Assembly (NCBI RefSeq): GCF_900156895.1
Contig: NZ_FTPD01000023.1
Span: 192,892 to 256,891 of the forward strand
Direction of reading: 5' to 3'
DNA from: Mesorhizobium prunaredense
Lineage (GTDB): Bacteria > Pseudomonadota > Alphaproteobacteria > Rhizobiales > Rhizobiaceae
Length of the DNA: 64,000 nucleotides
In this document: positions 48,437 to 55,474 of the stretch, piece after piece
Numbering within the stretch: position 1 is the stretch's first letter
Layout of the letters: each line of letters opens with the position of its first letter
The notes under the pieces: model-generated
Seen by the model: only the letters and a program-made list of their open reading frames with translations
Told to the model about the DNA's origin: nothing
Database searches by the model: none
Program-made: the position numbers and the translations under genes

Positions 48437-48597
48437 GTGTCGCTTCGGCTTTTCGCCAATCACCAGCGTTGGAAGGCAGGCCGATGGGTCGGGTTTTGTT
48501 TGAGGTATCGCGGCATCTTCCGCCTTTCCTTCCCCCCTTGCCATACATATATTCGCGGCGTTCGCGACACGAACAATTGCCGAAGCGGGAGGCTCCT

Positions 48598-49686
48598 ATG
48601 GCGACATTGCAGAATTTCGATGCCGAAATTGCCAAGACCAATCAGGTCGTGCAGGACATGCGCACCAAGATCGAGCAGTCCGGCGCCGTGCTCGACACGC
48701 TTGCCAAGACCGACAAGAAGATCGGCGACGCCAATTTCGACCTCGAGAACGCCCGCATCGAGGATGTGCTGAAGCAGCAGAAGGTGATGGAAGGCAACAT
48801 CGCCGACCTGATCATCGGGCTGGAGGACGCCACCAACGTCTTCGGCGCCGAATTCGAGAGCATGAAGAACTACACCGGCTGGGAAAGCTTCGTCGGCATA
48901 TTTTCCGACCAGAGCAAGCAGCGAATGCGCACCGACCGCGTCCGCAACATGTCGCTGGCCGGCAATCTGCAGGAGCTTTTGGCGAAATCCGACACCATCG
49001 TCGGCATCCTCAAGGCGCAGAAGCAGATCCTCGACCAGCGTTACAAGACCTCCGAGGCCAGCCTGTCGCAGGTGATCGAGCGCCGCAAGGCGACCATGTC
49101 GAATCTCGAGACCGTGCAGAAGCGCATCGAGGAGCTCAATCCGATGCTGCTCGACATCGAGAACAAGATCGCCGCCTCGACCAGCCAGAAGGAGCGCACC
49201 GAGCTTGAAGGCGAGCGTTCGAAACTCGCCACCGAGTACAACGAGAAGCAGGCCAAGGAGCAGGAGCTGCTGGCCGAAAGCCAGACGCTGGAGCGCTACA
49301 CCTCGATGTTCCAGACCTTCGTCGATTCGCTCAACAACCAGATCGCGGCGCAGTCGACGCTGATCAACAAGCTGACCATCGATACCGAACAACGCATCGT
49401 GCTCTACAAGGCCCTGGAAGATTCGCTGAAGACCGCCGCCCAGCAGGACGTCGCCCACAAGATCAACACGCTGGGCAGCCAGGTCGACAACACCGCCGAG
49501 GAAACCATGGCCGGCATCGGCGCGGCCTCGCAGAAGCACATTGGCGATCTCCTCGAAATGCACGAGAAGAACATGGTGGCGACCGCCGACATCCAGCGCC
49601 GCAAGAAGCTGGCCGACGATGCCTTTGCCCGCCGCTTCGACGACGTGCTGAAAAAGCACAATGCGGCAAACTACGTGCAGTCGTAA
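48598..49686 (+). CDS. Coiled-coil protein, first gene of uncharacterised AAA+ operon
   Basis: A 362-aa soluble protein; CGGGAGGCTCCT precedes ATG 48598. Almost the entire length is charged helix with heptad character, from FDAEIAKTNQVVQDMRTKIEQSG to DIQRRKKLADDAFARRFDDVLKK, for example QRMRTDRVRNMSLAGNLQELLAKSD and NKIAASTSQKERTELEGERSKLATEYNEKQAKEQEL. The overall look is vaguely like TelA/toxic-anion-resistance coiled-coil proteins, but I see no diagnostic motif. No signal peptide or membrane segment. It is 29 bp before the next gene. It could be a scaffold or substrate adaptor of the AAA+ protein; that is inference. Confidence 0.78.
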   Translation: MATLQNFDAEIAKTNQVVQDMRTKIEQSGAVLDTLAKTDKKIGDANFDLENARIEDVLKQQKVMEGNIADLIIGLEDATNVFGAEFESMKNYTGWESFVGIFSDQSKQRMRTDRVRNMSLAGNLQELLAKSDTIVGILKAQKQILDQRYKTSEASLSQVIERRKATMSNLETVQKRIEELNPMLLDIENKIAASTSQKERTELEGERSKLATEYNEKQAKEQELLAESQTLERYTSMFQTFVDSLNNQIAAQSTLINKLTIDTEQRIVLYKALEDSLKTAAQQDVAHKINTLGSQVDNTAEETMAGIGAASQKHIGDLLEMHEKNMVATADIQRRKKLADDAFARRFDDVLKKHNAANYVQS

Positions 49687-49715
49687 TTGCTGCACCCGCT
49701 CCAAGGGCTGGCTGC

Positions 49716-50861
49716 ATGACCCCCGAAAACGAAGCGGCAACGCGTTATTTCTCGGCGATCACGGCGGCGCTCAGCGGCCTCGAAGTGTTCATGCGCGACG
49801 ATCGCTCGCCGCTCTACCGGCACGGCATCGTCGCCAAGATCGTCGCCGAATACATCGCGCGGCTCGACAACTCGTTTTCCTGCTGGCGCAACCGGCTGGG
49901 CTTCATGGAGACGTTCCGCATCTCGCGCGCCGAAAGCGGCTTTCCGGTCTTCCAGAACGTGCTCGAACTGGAAAACGACCGCCGCCAGGCAGATACGCGT
50001 CTCGCCAACATACCGCTGGCCGACGAGTTGCGCGAGGAAATGGCCGATTTCATCCTGCGCCACAAGGAATTCCCCGAGGCGCTGCAGAAGTCGATGGCCG
50101 AGCGGCTCTATCTGGAGGGCGTCAGGAGCGAGACGACCTTCGGGCCGTTCACCTTGGCGCAGACGGCAAAAGTCTCGGTCAATCCGAAGACCGGACGGCC
50201 TTACTACCTCGTCCATTGGGCCGCCTTCGACGGCAGCGCCAACCTGCCGCTGGTCTACATGGTGACTGTCGAGGATTCCTCCGAAGAGATGATCGGGCAG
50301 CTTGTCGACCGCAATGGCAAGCTCAACGACAAGGTCGACATTCCGCTTCCCGTTGAAGGACTGCTCAATCCCGAGCTTGCGCACCGCTTCGACGACTTCA
50401 CCGAGAAGAACTCCGCCTATACGCTGTCGCCGGCTACCATCGCGGTCAACCTCGACAAGGATTTCGAGCAACTCCACCCCAAGCAACTGCGCCGCGTCGT
50501 GCTCGGCCCGTTCTATTCGGCCGGGATCACCGACAACAATTCGACGGTCACCGACATTCTGGACAAGGTGCGCAAGCCGGAAAACGCCTGGCTGCTGACC
50601 TGGACCATCCAGGAGGTCTATTCGAAGTCCGAAAAGCCCGGCCGCAAAGGTCTGTTTTCGAGCGAGAAGGCGACGCAGGAATTCTTCATCGACACCGACG
50701 ATCTGGAGGCCGCGCGGCAAGGCGTGTCGAGCTACGAGAAGCATGCGCTGATCCCGCATGAGGCCTACCAGGCACTCTACGCCGCCGGCGAGGCGCAGAA
50801 GATCTTTTCCGGCTACAAGGTCCACATCCTGTCCAAAGGGCAGGTCATCAGTGACGTCTGA
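49716..50861 (+). CDS. Hypothetical protein, 381 aa, AAA+ operon
   Basis: The product begins TPENEAATRYFSAITAALSGLEVFMRDDRSPLYRHG and includes LVHWAAFDGSANLPLVYMVTVEDSSEEMIGQL and LRRVVLGPFYSAGITDNNSTVTDIL, with a C-terminal YKVHILSKGQVISDV. It appears to be a mixed alpha/beta cytosolic protein without membrane segments, with no known family or catalytic motif that I can identify. It starts 29 bp after the coiled-coil gene and ends 24 bp before the AAA+ gene, so it is clearly part of the same transcription unit. Confidence 0.75.
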   Translation: MTPENEAATRYFSAITAALSGLEVFMRDDRSPLYRHGIVAKIVAEYIARLDNSFSCWRNRLGFMETFRISRAESGFPVFQNVLELENDRRQADTRLANIPLADELREEMADFILRHKEFPEALQKSMAERLYLEGVRSETTFGPFTLAQTAKVSVNPKTGRPYYLVHWAAFDGSANLPLVYMVTVEDSSEEMIGQLVDRNGKLNDKVDIPLPVEGLLNPELAHRFDDFTEKNSAYTLSPATIAVNLDKDFEQLHPKQLRRVVLGPFYSAGITDNNSTVTDILDKVRKPENAWLLTWTIQEVYSKSEKPGRKGLFSSEKATQEFFIDTDDLEAARQGVSSYEKHALIPHEAYQALYAAGEAQKIFSGYKVHILSKGQVISDV

Positions 50862-50885
50862 CCGTCAAACCGCGGAGCATCCTTC

Positions 50886-52796
50886 ATGGACACCGGCCTG
50901 ACCACGATTTCGGAAGCGGCAATCGAAAAGCACCGCGCTACCGCGCAGAGCTTCATCACCCGCATCGTCGTGCTGGAGGACCCGTCGCGGGAATCCGGGA
51001 CCGCGCTTGCCGGCACCAACCGCCGCTTCGTCTCGACCGTCTCGGTCGGCTCGGTGCGCCGCACGCGCGAGGTCGAGCTTTCCAAGACCGTGGCCGCCGT
51101 CCATCCCGACGACCAGTTGCTGAGCATTGCACAGCACATGCTGCTTTATCGCACCCGGCGCGGGCTGGCGATCGCGCTGGCCATCGCCGATGTCTTCGCC
51201 GAAGGCTCAGATCTCGAGAGCCTGAAGGCGAAAAACGCCCGCGCGCCGCTCGAAGGCGACGAGGCCGCCGCCTTCAAGAAGCTGCTGTCGGCCTCGGCCT
51301 ATATTTCGGCCTTCAGCCTCGCCTCCTATCTGTTCCAGCTGATCGACAGCGATGGCGAGGCGCCGAACGACACACCCGAGCCGGACTTCTTGTTCGACAC
51401 GCCGCAGGATGCGGTGAAATCGATCGTGGCCGGCCTCGACAGGGCGATAGCGGGCGCCAAGGACGATGCCGACCTGATGACCCGGGCGCGCGCCTTCGCC
51501 CGTGTCGCCATCGACGGGCTTTTGGCGCGAAAGGGCCGCTTCGACGGCATCGGTCCGTTCGAGAACGCGCATATCCGCATCGACGTCGACGACTTCACCC
51601 TTGACGGCTTCGACGTCGCACCGGGCAAGCGGTCGAAGCCGCTGGTGATGACCTTCAAGAATCCGGAAGAGGTCGTCGGCAACCACATCGCCAAATACCA
51701 GTCGGTGAAGCTCGCCAAGATGCTGATGGCTTACGATTTCGAGCGCGAGCTGAACCCGTTCGTCGAGCTCGGCGGCTTCCTGTTCACCTTCATCGGCGAC
51801 GGCGCGCCCGGCACCGGCAAGACGACGCTGATCCAGATGATCGCCGGTCTCGTCAACGGCTACTGCCAGGTCGCCGGCTATCCCTTCGCCTACGAGAATT
51901 TCGGCGTCGACCAGATCTCCTCCTACCAGGGCAAGTCGGGCCAGAACTGCCGCCAGTTCATCAACAATGTGCTGAACCCGCGCGTCATCGGCTTCGGCAC
52001 CATCGACGACATCGACCAGGTGGCGGCCCGACGCTCCGACGATCGTGCCTCGGCCGGCCAGCAGGAAATCACCGGCGTTTTGATGGACGCATTCGGGGGT
52101 GCGGCCACGGTGGTGCGCGGCAACTGCTCCTTCGGCATGTTCTCCAACTATCCCGAAAACGTCGACGACGCGCTGCGCCAGCGCGCCGGCGCCCGCTGGC
52201 TGGTCGATGGGCCACAAACGCGCGACGACTATATCGACATCTTCGTGCTGCTCGCCGGCAAGAACCACAAGATCCCGCTCGGCGACCACAAGCTCTACGC
52301 CGCCCAGGAAATCCAGCGCGCGGTGATGGAGGCCTATGAAGAGCACGAGAAGCCCAGGGAAGACGGGCTGATGAAGGTCTATGAGCGCTACATGAAGGAG
52401 AACGGCGCGCCGAAGTCGATGGCTGACATCGGCACCTATCTGCATATGATCAAGGAGGCCGAGCCGCGCTTCACCGGCCGCGCCATCAAGAACGTCACCG
52501 ACGCGATCAAGATGCGCGCCATGGACATCGAGCTGCCGGACGAATGGTTCGAGAAGCCGGAAGTCTTCATGCACAAGGGCTACGACGACAAGAAGGCGAT
52601 GATCGAGGAACTGCGCGGCCCGTTCTCGATGGACATGGCCATGCAGGAGGTCAACCGTTACGCCGACTCGGAGTTCCGCTACTCCGACAGATCCGACGAC
52701 GCAGCGGTGACCAAGATGATCCGCGACACCCGCCTGCGCGACCGCGCGATGCGCGAGATCGAGGAGCTGAAGAACAAGGGCCTGTGGAATGCATGA
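50886..52796 (+). CDS. AAA+ ATPase of uncharacterised operon, 636 aa
   Basis: A helical N-terminal region of about 290 residues without a known domain is followed by one AAA+ module. Walker A is GDGAPGTGKTT (304-314), Walker B-like GTIDDIDQ (371-378) with two adjacent Asp, sensor 1 near Asn421 (MFSNYPE) and an arginine-finger candidate in DDALRQRAGARW (428-439). The C-terminal helical part (about 460-636) carries the lid. The layout of a long N-domain plus single AAA+ ring module suggests a hexameric remodelling ATPase. The neighbours (coiled-coil, two unknowns, DUF2333) would be its partners or substrates. AGCATCCTTC precedes ATG 50886. Confidence 0.85.
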   Translation: MDTGLTTISEAAIEKHRATAQSFITRIVVLEDPSRESGTALAGTNRRFVSTVSVGSVRRTREVELSKTVAAVHPDDQLLSIAQHMLLYRTRRGLAIALAIADVFAEGSDLESLKAKNARAPLEGDEAAAFKKLLSASAYISAFSLASYLFQLIDSDGEAPNDTPEPDFLFDTPQDAVKSIVAGLDRAIAGAKDDADLMTRARAFARVAIDGLLARKGRFDGIGPFENAHIRIDVDDFTLDGFDVAPGKRSKPLVMTFKNPEEVVGNHIAKYQSVKLAKMLMAYDFERELNPFVELGGFLFTFIGDGAPGTGKTTLIQMIAGLVNGYCQVAGYPFAYENFGVDQISSYQGKSGQNCRQFINNVLNPRVIGFGTIDDIDQVAARRSDDRASAGQQEITGVLMDAFGGAATVVRGNCSFGMFSNYPENVDDALRQRAGARWLVDGPQTRDDYIDIFVLLAGKNHKIPLGDHKLYAAQEIQRAVMEAYEEHEKPREDGLMKVYERYMKENGAPKSMADIGTYLHMIKEAEPRFTGRAIKNVTDAIKMRAMDIELPDEWFEKPEVFMHKGYDDKKAMIEELRGPFSMDMAMQEVNRYADSEFRYSDRSDDAAVTKMIRDTRLRDRAMREIEELKNKGLWNA

Positions 52797-52976
52797 AATG
52801 CGCCGACGCCCCCTTCTCCCCTTGTGGGGTCCGAAGAACGGGGCGAGACCAGTGGCTCGCCCCCGGGCGGTGTCTCCGAAGGCGACGGATGAGGGGTTTT
52901 CGTCAAGCTGGAACACCCCTCATCCGTCTTGGCGCTGCGCGCCAATCCACCTTCTCCCACAAGGGGAGAAGGGAGA
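52797..52976. repeat. Palindromic repeats inside the AAA+ operon
   Basis: 180 bp composed of CCTTCTCCCC / ACGGATGAGGGGTTTT / CCCCTCATCCGTC / CTTCTCCCACAAGGGGAGAAG arms, including inverted copies of GACGGATGAGGGG and AACACCCCTCATCCGT. The last hairpin ends in the ribosome-binding site (GGGAGA) of the next gene, so folding could modulate its translation. Confidence 0.75.
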
Positions 52977-54281
52977 ATGAGCCCCGCCAAATCATCCGAT
53001 CTGCTGCGCGAGAACGAGCTGATCTACGGCCGGCTGCTGACCATCGACGAGCCGCATCTGATCCAGCGCTACAACAAGGCTTTGGTCGCCTTCGGCCTGA
53101 AGCCGACGAAGTTGAAAAGCTTCGAGATCGATCGCACCGGCTTCTCGCCGCAGGTGGCCGAGGAATGCGGCGACTACAGCTACCTCGATCCCAACGAGAT
53201 CAACCGCCGTTTCATCATCCTGACCCCGTCGCAGATCGACCTGCCGGTGGTGCACACCGCCTTTTCCAACACGTCGCAACTGATGTTCGAGTTCATGTCG
53301 ACGAACCAGCGCGCCATCGACGCGCTGACCATCAAGGATGTCATCTATGGCGAGATCGAGGATTCGGTCCCCAAGATCGACGACATCGAGGACCTGCTGT
53401 CGATCAACCAGGTCGAGTTCAAGGTTCTGTCGGCGGAGGACGTGCTCGGCAAGGCCGCCGAACTCGGCAAGCTCGTCGACCGATTGAAGCAGGAACCGGA
53501 CGCCTGGCGCGACAGTGCCATGCTCACCCGCATGGTCGAGCTGGCCAAGATCTGCGGCGACATCCGCGAGAACGCGCTGGTGCCGGATCAGGTGATCTTT
53601 CGCCACAGCGCCTATTGGACCAGCCATTTCGGCGGGCTCTATGCGTTTATCGACCCCGACATGACGACGGTGATCAGCGACCCCGCAGCCCCCGGCTTCC
53701 GCCGCTCGCGGCCGTGGCAGGTGAGCTACCTCTCGATAAACGATGCCGACAGGGTGTTCAAGTTCCTCGCCGCGACCGGCCGCATCGAACTGCCGCGGGC
53801 CTCGTGGATCGAAACATCAGGCTATCTCGAGCACCGCGCCGAAATGGTGGTGCGCGCGCTGATCCGCGACGCCGAGCCCGACCGCAACCTGACCGACGTC
53901 GACAAGGTCTGGCTGCAGACCTGGATCCACGGCCATGCCGACCTAATCACCAGGGACGGCAGTTTCCCCTTTCTCAACGCCGCCAAGCGCGAGATCGCTC
54001 ACCTCGGCTATCTCAAGATCGAGGACGTATTCCCGCAGCAGCGTTTTCTGGTGATCCGGGCCAAGCCCGGCCATCCCGACGCCTGGCTGACCAACCAGCT
54101 GATCTCGGATTTCGTGCCGCAGGATTTCGTCTCGCGCTACGTCTTCAACAAACCGGGTTTTTACAAGGACTATGACGGCTTCAGCGACGCCTGGCGATCG
54201 CATGTTGTGGACGTTCTGAAAACCACATATCTGAAAGACAAGGTGGCGTTTCGCACACGCCTCTACGGCCTTACCGATTGA
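52977..54281 (+). CDS. Hypothetical protein, 434 aa, AAA+ operon
   Basis: ATG 52977 follows GGGAGA directly; a longer frame runs into the repeats and is not credible. The protein begins SPAKSSDLLRENELIYGRLLTIDEPHLIQRYNKAL and has RFIILTPSQIDLPVVHTAFSNTSQLMFEFMSTNQRAID, a Trp-rich middle (YWTSHFGGLYAFIDPDMTTV) and a C-terminal DFVSRYVFNKPGFYKDYDGFSDAWRSHVV. Soluble, no known domain, no obvious catalytic motif. It follows the AAA+ gene after the 180-bp repeat spacer and precedes the DUF2333 gene by 50 bp. I cannot assign a function. Confidence 0.75.
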   Translation: MSPAKSSDLLRENELIYGRLLTIDEPHLIQRYNKALVAFGLKPTKLKSFEIDRTGFSPQVAEECGDYSYLDPNEINRRFIILTPSQIDLPVVHTAFSNTSQLMFEFMSTNQRAIDALTIKDVIYGEIEDSVPKIDDIEDLLSINQVEFKVLSAEDVLGKAAELGKLVDRLKQEPDAWRDSAMLTRMVELAKICGDIRENALVPDQVIFRHSAYWTSHFGGLYAFIDPDMTTVISDPAAPGFRRSRPWQVSYLSINDADRVFKFLAATGRIELPRASWIETSGYLEHRAEMVVRALIRDAEPDRNLTDVDKVWLQTWIHGHADLITRDGSFPFLNAAKREIAHLGYLKIEDVFPQQRFLVIRAKPGHPDAWLTNQLISDFVPQDFVSRYVFNKPGFYKDYDGFSDAWRSHVVDVLKTTYLKDKVAFRTRLYGLTD

Positions 54282-54331
54282 ATGCCTAACCTTATCGAAT
54301 TCTTGGCTGACTGACGAGGGGTGACATCGCC

Positions 54332-55474
54332 ATGCTTGATCCGATCGTGAATTTCTTCACACGGATGTTCCAGTGGATTGGCCGCGGCATCGGCTTCGCC
54401 GTCGGCGTGATCCTGTGGCCGTTCATGTGGGCCGGGCGCTGGTATACGCAGCGCGGCTGGATCCTGAAGGCAGTGCTCGGCCTCGCTCTGCTCATGCTGA
54501 TCGGCCTCTACGGCTATTTCATCTGGAACACGCAGGTCTGGAGCAATTTCAATCCCGCCTATGCGGAAGCATATAAGTTCACGCGGCCGGCCGGAACCGC
54601 CCCGGCACAGCCCGCTCCTTCCGCCACCGGGGAAACCGCTGGCGTCGAGGGAGAGGTCAAGACCTGCACCCACTCGGCCATTGTCCAGGTTACGGCCGAT
54701 CTCATCGACTTCAACGTCAACGAGAATGCCTGGATCTCGTCGATGATACTCTACAAGCTCGGGCTCTTCGGCATGGACTGGGACCGTACGCCGTTTCTCG
54801 ACAACAAGGCCTCGTTCCAGCGCGGCGTCAATCAAGCCATCCGGCGCACCACGGTCGAGCTTGTCGACACGCTGGGCCGCGTCCGCGGCACCAGCCAGAT
54901 CGACCAGAACCTGCAGGATGCGCGCGGCGCGATCACCTTCGACGAGGAAACCTGGTATTTCGGCCTCAGGCCCTTTGGTCCGAAAACCCCGACGCCGAGT
55001 TTCTATCGCACGGCGGCGAGCAGCCTTCGCGCCTTCAACGACCGGCTCATGAAATGCGAGGTTGTCTTCAACGCGCGCGCCGACAATCTGTTGCAGTTCG
55101 TCGATCGGATCGCGAGTGACATAGGCTCGACGTCCGACCTGATCCGTGACCGTTCGCAGAACTTCAACAGCGGCTGGTTCGACACGCGCGCTGACGACCG
55201 CTTCTGGTTCGCCTACGGCCAGCTCTACGGCTATTACGGCATCCTGACGGCGGCGCATCACGACTTCCAGCAGGTTCTCGACAATCGCGGCCTCACGCCG
55301 CTTTGGAACAGCGTGGAAGGCCAGCTCAAGGCAGCGCTCGCCATCCAGCCTCTGATAATATCCAACGGCCGCGAGGATGGCTGGATCATGCCCACCCACC
55401 TCACCACGATGGGATTCTATGTGCTTAGGGTGCGATCGAACCTCGTCGAGGTCAGGTCCGTCCTGGATCGGTGA
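54332..55474 (+). CDS. DUF2333 family membrane-anchored protein
   Basis: A 380-aa protein with an N-terminal amphipathic/hydrophobic pair (IGFAVGVILWPFMWAGRW, about 20-37; ILKAVLGLALLMLIGLYGYFIW, 44-65) that anchors it in the inner membrane. A large periplasmic domain follows, with ITADLIDFNVNENAW-like segments, ARGAITFDEETWYFGLRPFGPKTPTPSFYRTAASSLRAFNDRL and ILTAAHHDFQQVLDNRG. It matches DUF2333, found in proteobacteria with no known biochemical activity. GACGAGGGGTGACATCGCC precedes ATG 54332. Last gene of the five-gene unit, and probably its link to the envelope. Confidence 0.85.
   Translation: MLDPIVNFFTRMFQWIGRGIGFAVGVILWPFMWAGRWYTQRGWILKAVLGLALLMLIGLYGYFIWNTQVWSNFNPAYAEAYKFTRPAGTAPAQPAPSATGETAGVEGEVKTCTHSAIVQVTADLIDFNVNENAWISSMILYKLGLFGMDWDRTPFLDNKASFQRGVNQAIRRTTVELVDTLGRVRGTSQIDQNLQDARGAITFDEETWYFGLRPFGPKTPTPSFYRTAASSLRAFNDRLMKCEVVFNARADNLLQFVDRIASDIGSTSDLIRDRSQNFNSGWFDTRADDRFWFAYGQLYGYYGILTAAHHDFQQVLDNRGLTPLWNSVEGQLKAALAIQPLIISNGREDGWIMPTHLTTMGFYVLRVRSNLVEVRSVLDR

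Follow-up and report, generated by a model that had tools for sequence, protein, structure and literature searches.

A conserved four-gene AAA+ module with an exchangeable, tailed membrane partner in Mesorhizobium prunaredense and other proteobacteria

On what might the AAA+ ATPase of an operon with no assigned function act? The operon in question, genes A to E, lies in a 64-kb stretch of the 7.0-Mb Mesorhizobium prunaredense genome (the window, hereafter). Its first four genes (ABCD) are conserved as a core, and the fifth encodes a membrane protein in whose place other bacteria carry an unrelated one; in each of these partners one end of the chain is conserved in dependence on ABCD. We think it somewhat probable, from the pattern of conservation, that an AAA+ complex of A, B, C and D docks on, pulls or clamps the cytosolic tail of an inner-membrane protein that faces the periplasm. 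The genes are as follows.

48598..49686, plus strand: gene A, open reading frame (ORF) of 362 amino acids (aa), all-helical coiled-coil protein
49716..50861, plus strand: gene B, ORF of 381 aa, no named family
50886..52796, plus strand: gene C, ORF of 636 aa, classical AAA ATPase whose N-terminal part is long, about 260-300 aa
52977..54281, plus strand: gene D, ORF of 434 aa from this start (a longer frame from 52929 is also listed), DUF6638
54332..55474, plus strand: gene E, ORF of 380 aa, DUF2333, one transmembrane (TM) helix

Results

Conservation of the locus

The ORF list and the sequence gave five intact plus-strand frames separated by 29 (A-B), 24 (B-C), 180 (C-D, filled by a repeat) and 50 bp (D-E), as a preliminary description of the window had reported. 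It had also called the stretch typical in guanine-plus-cytosine (GC) content, and the value of 0.617 for A-E, against 0.625 ± 0.023 when the window is cut into 6.9-kb slices, bears this out. Gene E had been read there as a membrane-anchored DUF2333 protein, in agreement with its match to PF10095 (E = 1e-18, 67.9 bits, cut-off 22) and its single TM helix. The product of D had been described as an unknown; it matches DUF6638 (PF20343, E = 3.1e-67, 227.8 bits, cut-off 27).

The order A-B-C-D-E on one strand was kept in 77 of 80 named relatives, from Mesorhizobium, Aminobacter, Aquamicrobium, Nitratireductor, Phyllobacterium and others, and the remaining three loci (L071, L104 and L118) end at contig edges. 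Thus, the operon is more than a chance arrangement, and the genes are kept together as the preliminary description supposed. Among 297 genomes sampled from the window's family, C was detected in 175 (G310 included, with E = 6.5e-4 only), A in 185 and DUF2333 in 235; the match to C in G310 and one to A in G304 (E = 4e-4) were not taken as real. All 174 genomes with a strong C also had A, and 172 of them had DUF2333. A occurred without C in 11 genomes, several of these matches being weak or divergent, and DUF2333 occurred with neither A nor C in 52. All five same-genus genomes checked had one match each, in a conserved place.

Outside the family the distribution is patchy. Only five of 289 genomes sampled across the class, the window's own included, carried a strong C, so that ABCD is not a core function of the Alphaproteobacteria. 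A phylum-wide sample of 398 genomes had DUF6638 in 26. Nine loci fetched from four other families (L147-L155) all have the order A-B-C-D followed by a gene for a DUF1523 protein, and Vibrio megaplasmids carry A-B-C-D followed by mfd. The conserved unit is a four-gene soluble core, found in the window's family, in other proteobacterial families and on Vibrio megaplasmids.

Could such a module serve in anti-phage defence? The only matches to known systems in PADLOC were very weak, confined to the AAA core of C (IetA and TRIP13, E about 5e-4, the best 4.6e-4), and none for any operon protein was convincing. Neither A nor C had a match in 50,697 phage records, and no relatives of C were found in viral contigs; the single copy in a conserved place and the typical GC content also speak against defence, which we regard as very improbable. 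The preference of the preliminary description for a conserved module was therefore sound. No publication on the ABCD operon was among the matches listed in the open-licence PMC literature; ABCD is a real and well-conserved module and, by that measure, an undescribed one.

The membrane partner

The gene that follows ABCD differs between lineages: it encodes DUF2333 in Mesorhizobium and relatives and DUF1523 elsewhere, the latter mostly together with an unnamed two-TM protein of 90 aa. Of 100 genomes from family f24, probably the Rhodobacteraceae, 48 have DUF6638. DUF1523 occurs in 88 of the 100, made up of 48/48 genomes with DUF6638 and 40/52 without it. In the 30 loci checked, DUF1523 always lay downstream of D on the same strand, after a gap of 285-364 bp. 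Of 37 loci read, 34 encode in this gap a protein of ∼90 residues that has a basic loop and two TM helices; it is not in L135 or L150 and was not recovered in L218. Similar ORFs stood beside DUF1523 in 6/6 loci from genomes lacking DUF6638 (BLAST), and a strict automatic pattern for the small protein was matched in 46/57 loci with ABCD (ABCD+) and 10/26 without it (ABCD−). The protein (L205-L231 and others), with the pattern YSRSVRREKLE...YD.S.RRKLILGVY, thus precedes DUF1523 with or without ABCD, and the two sequences of it that were searched matched no Pfam or NCBIfam family.

Both DUF2333 and DUF1523 also occur without ABCD. DUF1523 had no match in the window's own genome, and the control genomes were empty too, though the same model matches 88/100 f24 genomes. 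The five-gene unit of the preliminary description therefore stands for ABCD but not for DUF2333, which is replaced by DUF1523 elsewhere, while neither lies beside ABCD in Vibrio or on one Rhizobium plasmid. The membrane partner of ABCD is exchangeable.

Conservation of the tails

Two segments of E matter here.

54332..54451, plus strand: first 40 codons of E, encoding the N-terminal segment MLDPIVNFFTRMFQWIGRGIG..., which co-varies with ABCD, lies presumably in the cytosol and is the proposed docking tail
54470..54526, plus strand: TM helix of E, residues 47-65, from hydropathy

DUF2333 of the window has one TM helix, its N-terminal segment carries a net positive charge, and its two cysteines, C112 and C242, do not vary across 17 sequences; together these features suggest a cytosolic N-terminus and a periplasmic domain. 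DUF2333 proteins from 132 ABCD+ and 38 ABCD− sources were reduced to 58 and 23 sequences, respectively, by dereplication at 92% domain identity within each class. ABCD status was set by the presence of C in the genome for sources with a G number, and for L185 by the plasmid record only; L193 was left out, as its DUF2333 sequence was not extracted intact.

A start of the form M[LF][DE]P was present in 58/58 ABCD+ sequences and 3/23 ABCD− sequences, and a search of residues 1-90 for [LFI][DE]P[IVL] at any position gave the same counts. At a domain identity of 0.60-0.70, the N-terminal 45 residues had a mean identity of 0.60 in ABCD+ pairs, 0.36-0.38 between classes and 0.29-0.30 in ABCD− pairs. 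On a tree of the DUF2333 domain, the ratio of N-terminal to domain change on terminal branches had a median of 3.39 for ABCD− and 1.39 for ABCD+ (Mann-Whitney P = 4e-4). Among the 12 maximal ABCD− clades, nine were free of the motif throughout, one was mixed, and two, each a single tip, had it.

A similar pattern was seen at the other end of the other partner. DUF1523 (as read in L147) has two TM helices, at about residues 2-20 and 146-164, and its C-terminal tail should be cytosolic. In most ABCD+ genomes this tail ends in a sequence like RWLDTWRxK. For DUF1523, identical sequences were merged and all sequences, L131 included, were cut at the stop codon. The motif W[LMIF]x[TSA][WF][RK] was then found in 43/54 ABCD+ tails and 0/26 ABCD− tails, and in 30/40 and 0/6, respectively, of the tails that were unseen when the motif was chosen. 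For 17 of the 26 ABCD− proteins the nearest ABCD+ relative carries the motif, as does the DUF1523 of G624, which belongs to another class and lies outside the test set. At a periplasmic identity of 0.5-0.6, tail identity was 0.42 for ABCD+ and 0.33 for ABCD−, and the control segments gave 0.38 versus 0.47 (N-terminus with TM1) and 0.37 versus 0.39 (TM2). The control segments of both partners show little or no dependence on ABCD. Since the DUF1523 of a Pseudomonas plasmid and the DUF2333 of Vibrio have no tail extensions, the tails look like additions to these proteins.

It could be argued that the two membrane proteins are simply neighbours of ABCD, sharing a locus by descent, and that the changes in the tails are lineage effects. 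DUF2333 is indeed found without ABCD near thymidine kinase, choline transporter and fhs genes, and the tips of the trees are related. However, parsimony places ∼10 changes of ABCD state on the DUF2333 tree and ∼16 on the DUF1523 tree, and the same pattern, chiefly at the cytosolic end, is repeated over these changes in two unrelated partners, so we regard mere neighbourhood as unlikely. Two unrelated membrane proteins retain a distinctive end chiefly where ABCD occurs, and this is most simply explained by contact between ABCD and these cytosolic ends; docking is what we infer from the co-variation. No one subunit is picked out as the tail binder: retention of the DUF2333 tail in sources with a divergent A and no C was not significantly above that in sources with neither (6 versus 32, P = 0.13), so A is not singled out, and the binder could be any of A, B or D.

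The motor protein

C falls within the classical AAA family of Pfam (PF00004, E = 1.3e-10, 42.2 bits, cut-off 21.2), and the solved chains nearest to it in sequence are i-AAA, Afg2/Drg1 and Rpt2, with the alignment covering the AAA domain. Its motifs were followed through 124 C sequences, Vibrio included, a set that was not dereplicated and holds many close relatives.

51795..51824, plus strand: Walker A of C, residues 304-313, GDGxPGTGKT in 124/124
51924..51938, plus strand: pore loop 1 of C, YQGKS, residues 347-351, in 124/124, aligned by HMMER to YVG/YLG of i-AAA and Afg2
51996..52016, plus strand: Walker B of C, GTIDDID, residues 371-377, Asp replacing the catalytic Glu

The Walker A (GDGAPGTGKT, followed by T) and the DDID-type Walker B noted in the preliminary description are both present in the window's C. 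YQGKS we take to be the pore loop, its position being given by the alignment, and the same holds for the segments that we take to be sensor 1 and the arginine fingers. The two arginines of the SRH arginine-finger pattern and F[TS]GR were each intact in 124/124 sequences and sensor 1 in 122/124. C lacks the catalytic Glu of Walker B, which is usual in AAA proteins and without which membership is possible: GT[IV]DD[ILV]D was matched in 124/124 and the DE form in 0/124. As Asp stands for Glu in every sequence, the substitution is a family trait and not an error.

The pore loop raises the possibility that ABCD is an extraction or quality-control machine, like Msp1 or like FtsH without its protease, for which DUF2333 and DUF1523 would be substrates and not anchors. 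A classical AAA domain with an aromatic pore loop would suit such a role, as would the position of the tail at a free terminus in both partners. However, both membrane proteins are widespread without ABCD and so are not merely toxic clients, and a Pfam scan of C found no peptidase family; we judge extraction to be unlikely.

The remaining proteins

A and B matched no convincing family in Pfam, NCBIfam, PADLOC or PHROG, and profile searches of the PDB with alignments of A, B, D and E gave nothing convincing. In 28 profile pairs among A, B, C, the N-terminal part of C, D, E, DUF1523 and TelA, the only homology found was that of C with its own N-terminal part. An AlphaFold2 (AF2) model of A was all-helical with long helices and of modest confidence (pLDDT 71, pTM 0.56); the neighbours it found in a structural search were generic helical bundles, VIPP1 (Z 9.8) and F-BAR proteins among them, to be read in the light of that pLDDT.

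These neighbours bear on a further alternative, a remodelling system like ESCRT-III and Vps4, in which A would polymerize on the inner face of the membrane, C would disassemble it and the membrane protein would be merely a recruiting anchor. PspA/Snf7 proteins encoded with classical AAA+ and TM genes are on record (PMC11237479). The long helices of A fit this arrangement, but its Z scores lie within the range common for helical bundles, and neither the window's A nor those of L147 and L150 match the PspA_IM30 or Snf7 profiles. C has no MIT domain either, a Pfam scan at E up to 1 giving AAA, AAA_28, AAA_19 and ABC_tran only. Remodelling on its own would also leave unexplained why two unrelated partners have ABCD-dependent tails, and we consider it rather unlikely, if the least so of the alternatives.

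In some genomes gene A lies inside a very long open frame (810 in G563, 1122 in G560, about 800 in G301 and G532); these frames are probably read-through at high GC, though some may be fusions.

The AF2 model of D was confident (mean pLDDT 88.9, pTM 0.84). A structural search with it gave no match at E ≤ 0.001 in the PDB and BFVD, and none of 994 aligned chains reached Z ≥ 5, with the tool's own warning that models above 400 residues may hide single-domain matches. D is possibly of an unseen fold, and 'new fold' should be read as a lead only.

Intergenic regions

52797..52976, no strand: C-D spacer, 180 bp, with an inverted repeat inside
48524..48553, plus strand: promoter-like pair CTTTCC...TATATT before gene A, total length fixed at 30

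The spacer between C and D holds an inverted pair of the 18-mer CCTTCTCCCCTTGTGGGG, at 52812-52829 and 52955-52972 (one mismatch in the second copy); a search gave 2 matches where 0.03 were expected. This spacer is a spot for intergenic repeats; some relatives carry an endonuclease-like ORF or an IS4-like element there. Inserts were read at 9983-10450 in L043, 9962-10459 in L053 and 8100-8504 in L184, the last annotated 'endonuclease domain-containing', and the endonuclease-like ORF is, we presume, DUF559-like. The record of L184 (CP090106.1) is named pSymB at 3.7 Mb, larger than is usual for pSymB, and the replicon labels may be swapped.

Gene A has a conserved promoter-like pair of its own. 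In 59 of 90 regions upstream of A the pattern CTTTCA[AT]T-N16-TATATT was found at exactly 30 nt, where 24-32 was permitted; the window's own pair, a CTTTCC variant read by eye, is outside the 59. Stress-promoter motifs (EcfG, RpoH, LexA, CtrA and RpoE-like) were each present in at most one of the 90 regions.

Neighbours of the membrane proteins

On the Rhizobium leguminosarum plasmid pRlX5, the ORF after ABCD (L186, 13734-15770) resembles, by eye, the N-terminus of a primary sigma factor. Another R. leguminosarum plasmid has A with DUF2333, and no B, C or D, at the same thymidine kinase locus. DUF2333 lies near genes for sigma-70-family and anti-sigma factors in L343 and L344, and the gene immediately after it in Skermanella is of the YqhA family; in L185 a TIGR00645 gene, which we take to be YqhA-like, is near it. 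In Pseudomonas fluorescens MFE01 DUF2333 neighbours a muramoyl amidase gene in an hcp3 type VI secretion locus (PMC5256989). On a Pseudomonas plasmid (L346, 5001-6638) a TerD-vWA (TerF-like) gene comes after DUF1523, which may connect it with Ter stress modules. These neighbours hint, anecdotally, at envelope stress.

Discussion

The proposal that we favour can be set out in steps. A, B, C and D would form a soluble AAA+ complex, with C as the motor and A, B and D as adaptors, and its target would be an inner-membrane protein that has a periplasmic domain. The complex would recognize a cytosolic terminal tail, N-terminal in DUF2333 (MLDP..FF..F..IGRGIG here) and C-terminal in DUF1523 (RWLxTWRxK-like elsewhere), and C would thread or clamp this tail by its aromatic pore loop. 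Force from ATP hydrolysis in the cytosol would thereby alter the state or assembly of the periplasm-facing partner. The link, already proposed in the preliminary description, of a cytosolic AAA+ protein and a coiled-coil protein with a periplasm-facing membrane protein is supported, and a role in the envelope would be consistent with the data.

Several observations weigh against tail docking. Three of the 23 ABCD− DUF2333 proteins keep MLDP, and the DUF2333 TM region was slightly less alike in ABCD− sources (0.47 versus 0.55, in a smaller first set); the lack of significantly better tail retention in sources with A alone points the same way. Conversely, 11 of the 54 ABCD+ DUF1523 proteins have no WLxTW-type motif, and the ABCD+ loci L150 (f106), L152 (f165) and L155 (f24) are without it. 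In the four Vibrio records with C, the replicon that carries C has a distant DUF2333 as well, neither adjacent to ABCD nor provided with the N-terminal extension. The gene directly after ABCD on pRlX5 is not a membrane gene; a distant DUF1523 of this plasmid was considered as a carrier of the tail motif and rejected, as it has none. The tail motifs were chosen after inspection of the sequences, both trees are midpoint-rooted and carry no support values, and their tips are related, so that the counts are not independent. Finally, with Asp in its Walker B, C may hydrolyse ATP slowly or not cycle at all.

If tail docking is correct, DUF2333 and DUF1523, both uncharacterized, and DUF6638, for which no structural relative was found, gain a partner in common, and 20-40 residues are predicted as the site of contact. 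Events in the periplasm would be driven by ATP in the cytosol, for which no described counterpart was found in the open-licence PMC literature, and ABCD would be an example of a motor that keeps its core and swaps its membrane target. We put forward more tentatively, as a bolder claim with the balance somewhat against it, that this is a new class of envelope-directed AAA+ machine, in which a soluble four-protein motor, with DUF6638 as a member of possibly unseen fold, was coupled on two or more occasions to unrelated, periplasm-facing inner-membrane proteins through dedicated docking tails, transmitting cytosolic ATP hydrolysis to the periplasm by way of an exchangeable partner.

How does the module compare with known systems? 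The Pseudomonas plasmid with DUF1523 beside a TerD-vWA gene invites comparison with TelA and the Ter modules. TelA is helical, like A, but A shows no profile similarity to it (PF05816, hhalign probability 0.7%). A link of TelA with ABCD, taken up from co-occurrence in a first sample, was dropped, as TelA was present in 44/48 f24 genomes with DUF6638 and 45/52 without it (P = 0.53). The PspA/Snf7 systems with Vps4-like or other classical AAA+ proteins (PMC11237479) share with the operon a coiled-coil gene, an AAA+ gene and a membrane gene, whereas the operon proteins contain no PspA/Snf7 or MIT domain. Msp1 and Pex1-Pex6 resemble the proposed mechanism by analogy, in pulling on a membrane protein from the cytosol; ABCD differs in having a soluble four-protein core and a separate membrane partner, the comparison of sequence being limited to the AAA domain. 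With the classical AAA ATPases (PF00004) C shares Walker A, the Y-x-G pore loop, the sensor 1 Asn and two arginine fingers, and differs by its invariant Asp for the catalytic Glu, by its own long N-terminal part and by always being accompanied, in the loci read, by A, B and D. The ABCD module is ordinary in its motor family, and what is unusual in it is the exchangeable membrane partner together with its co-varying tails.

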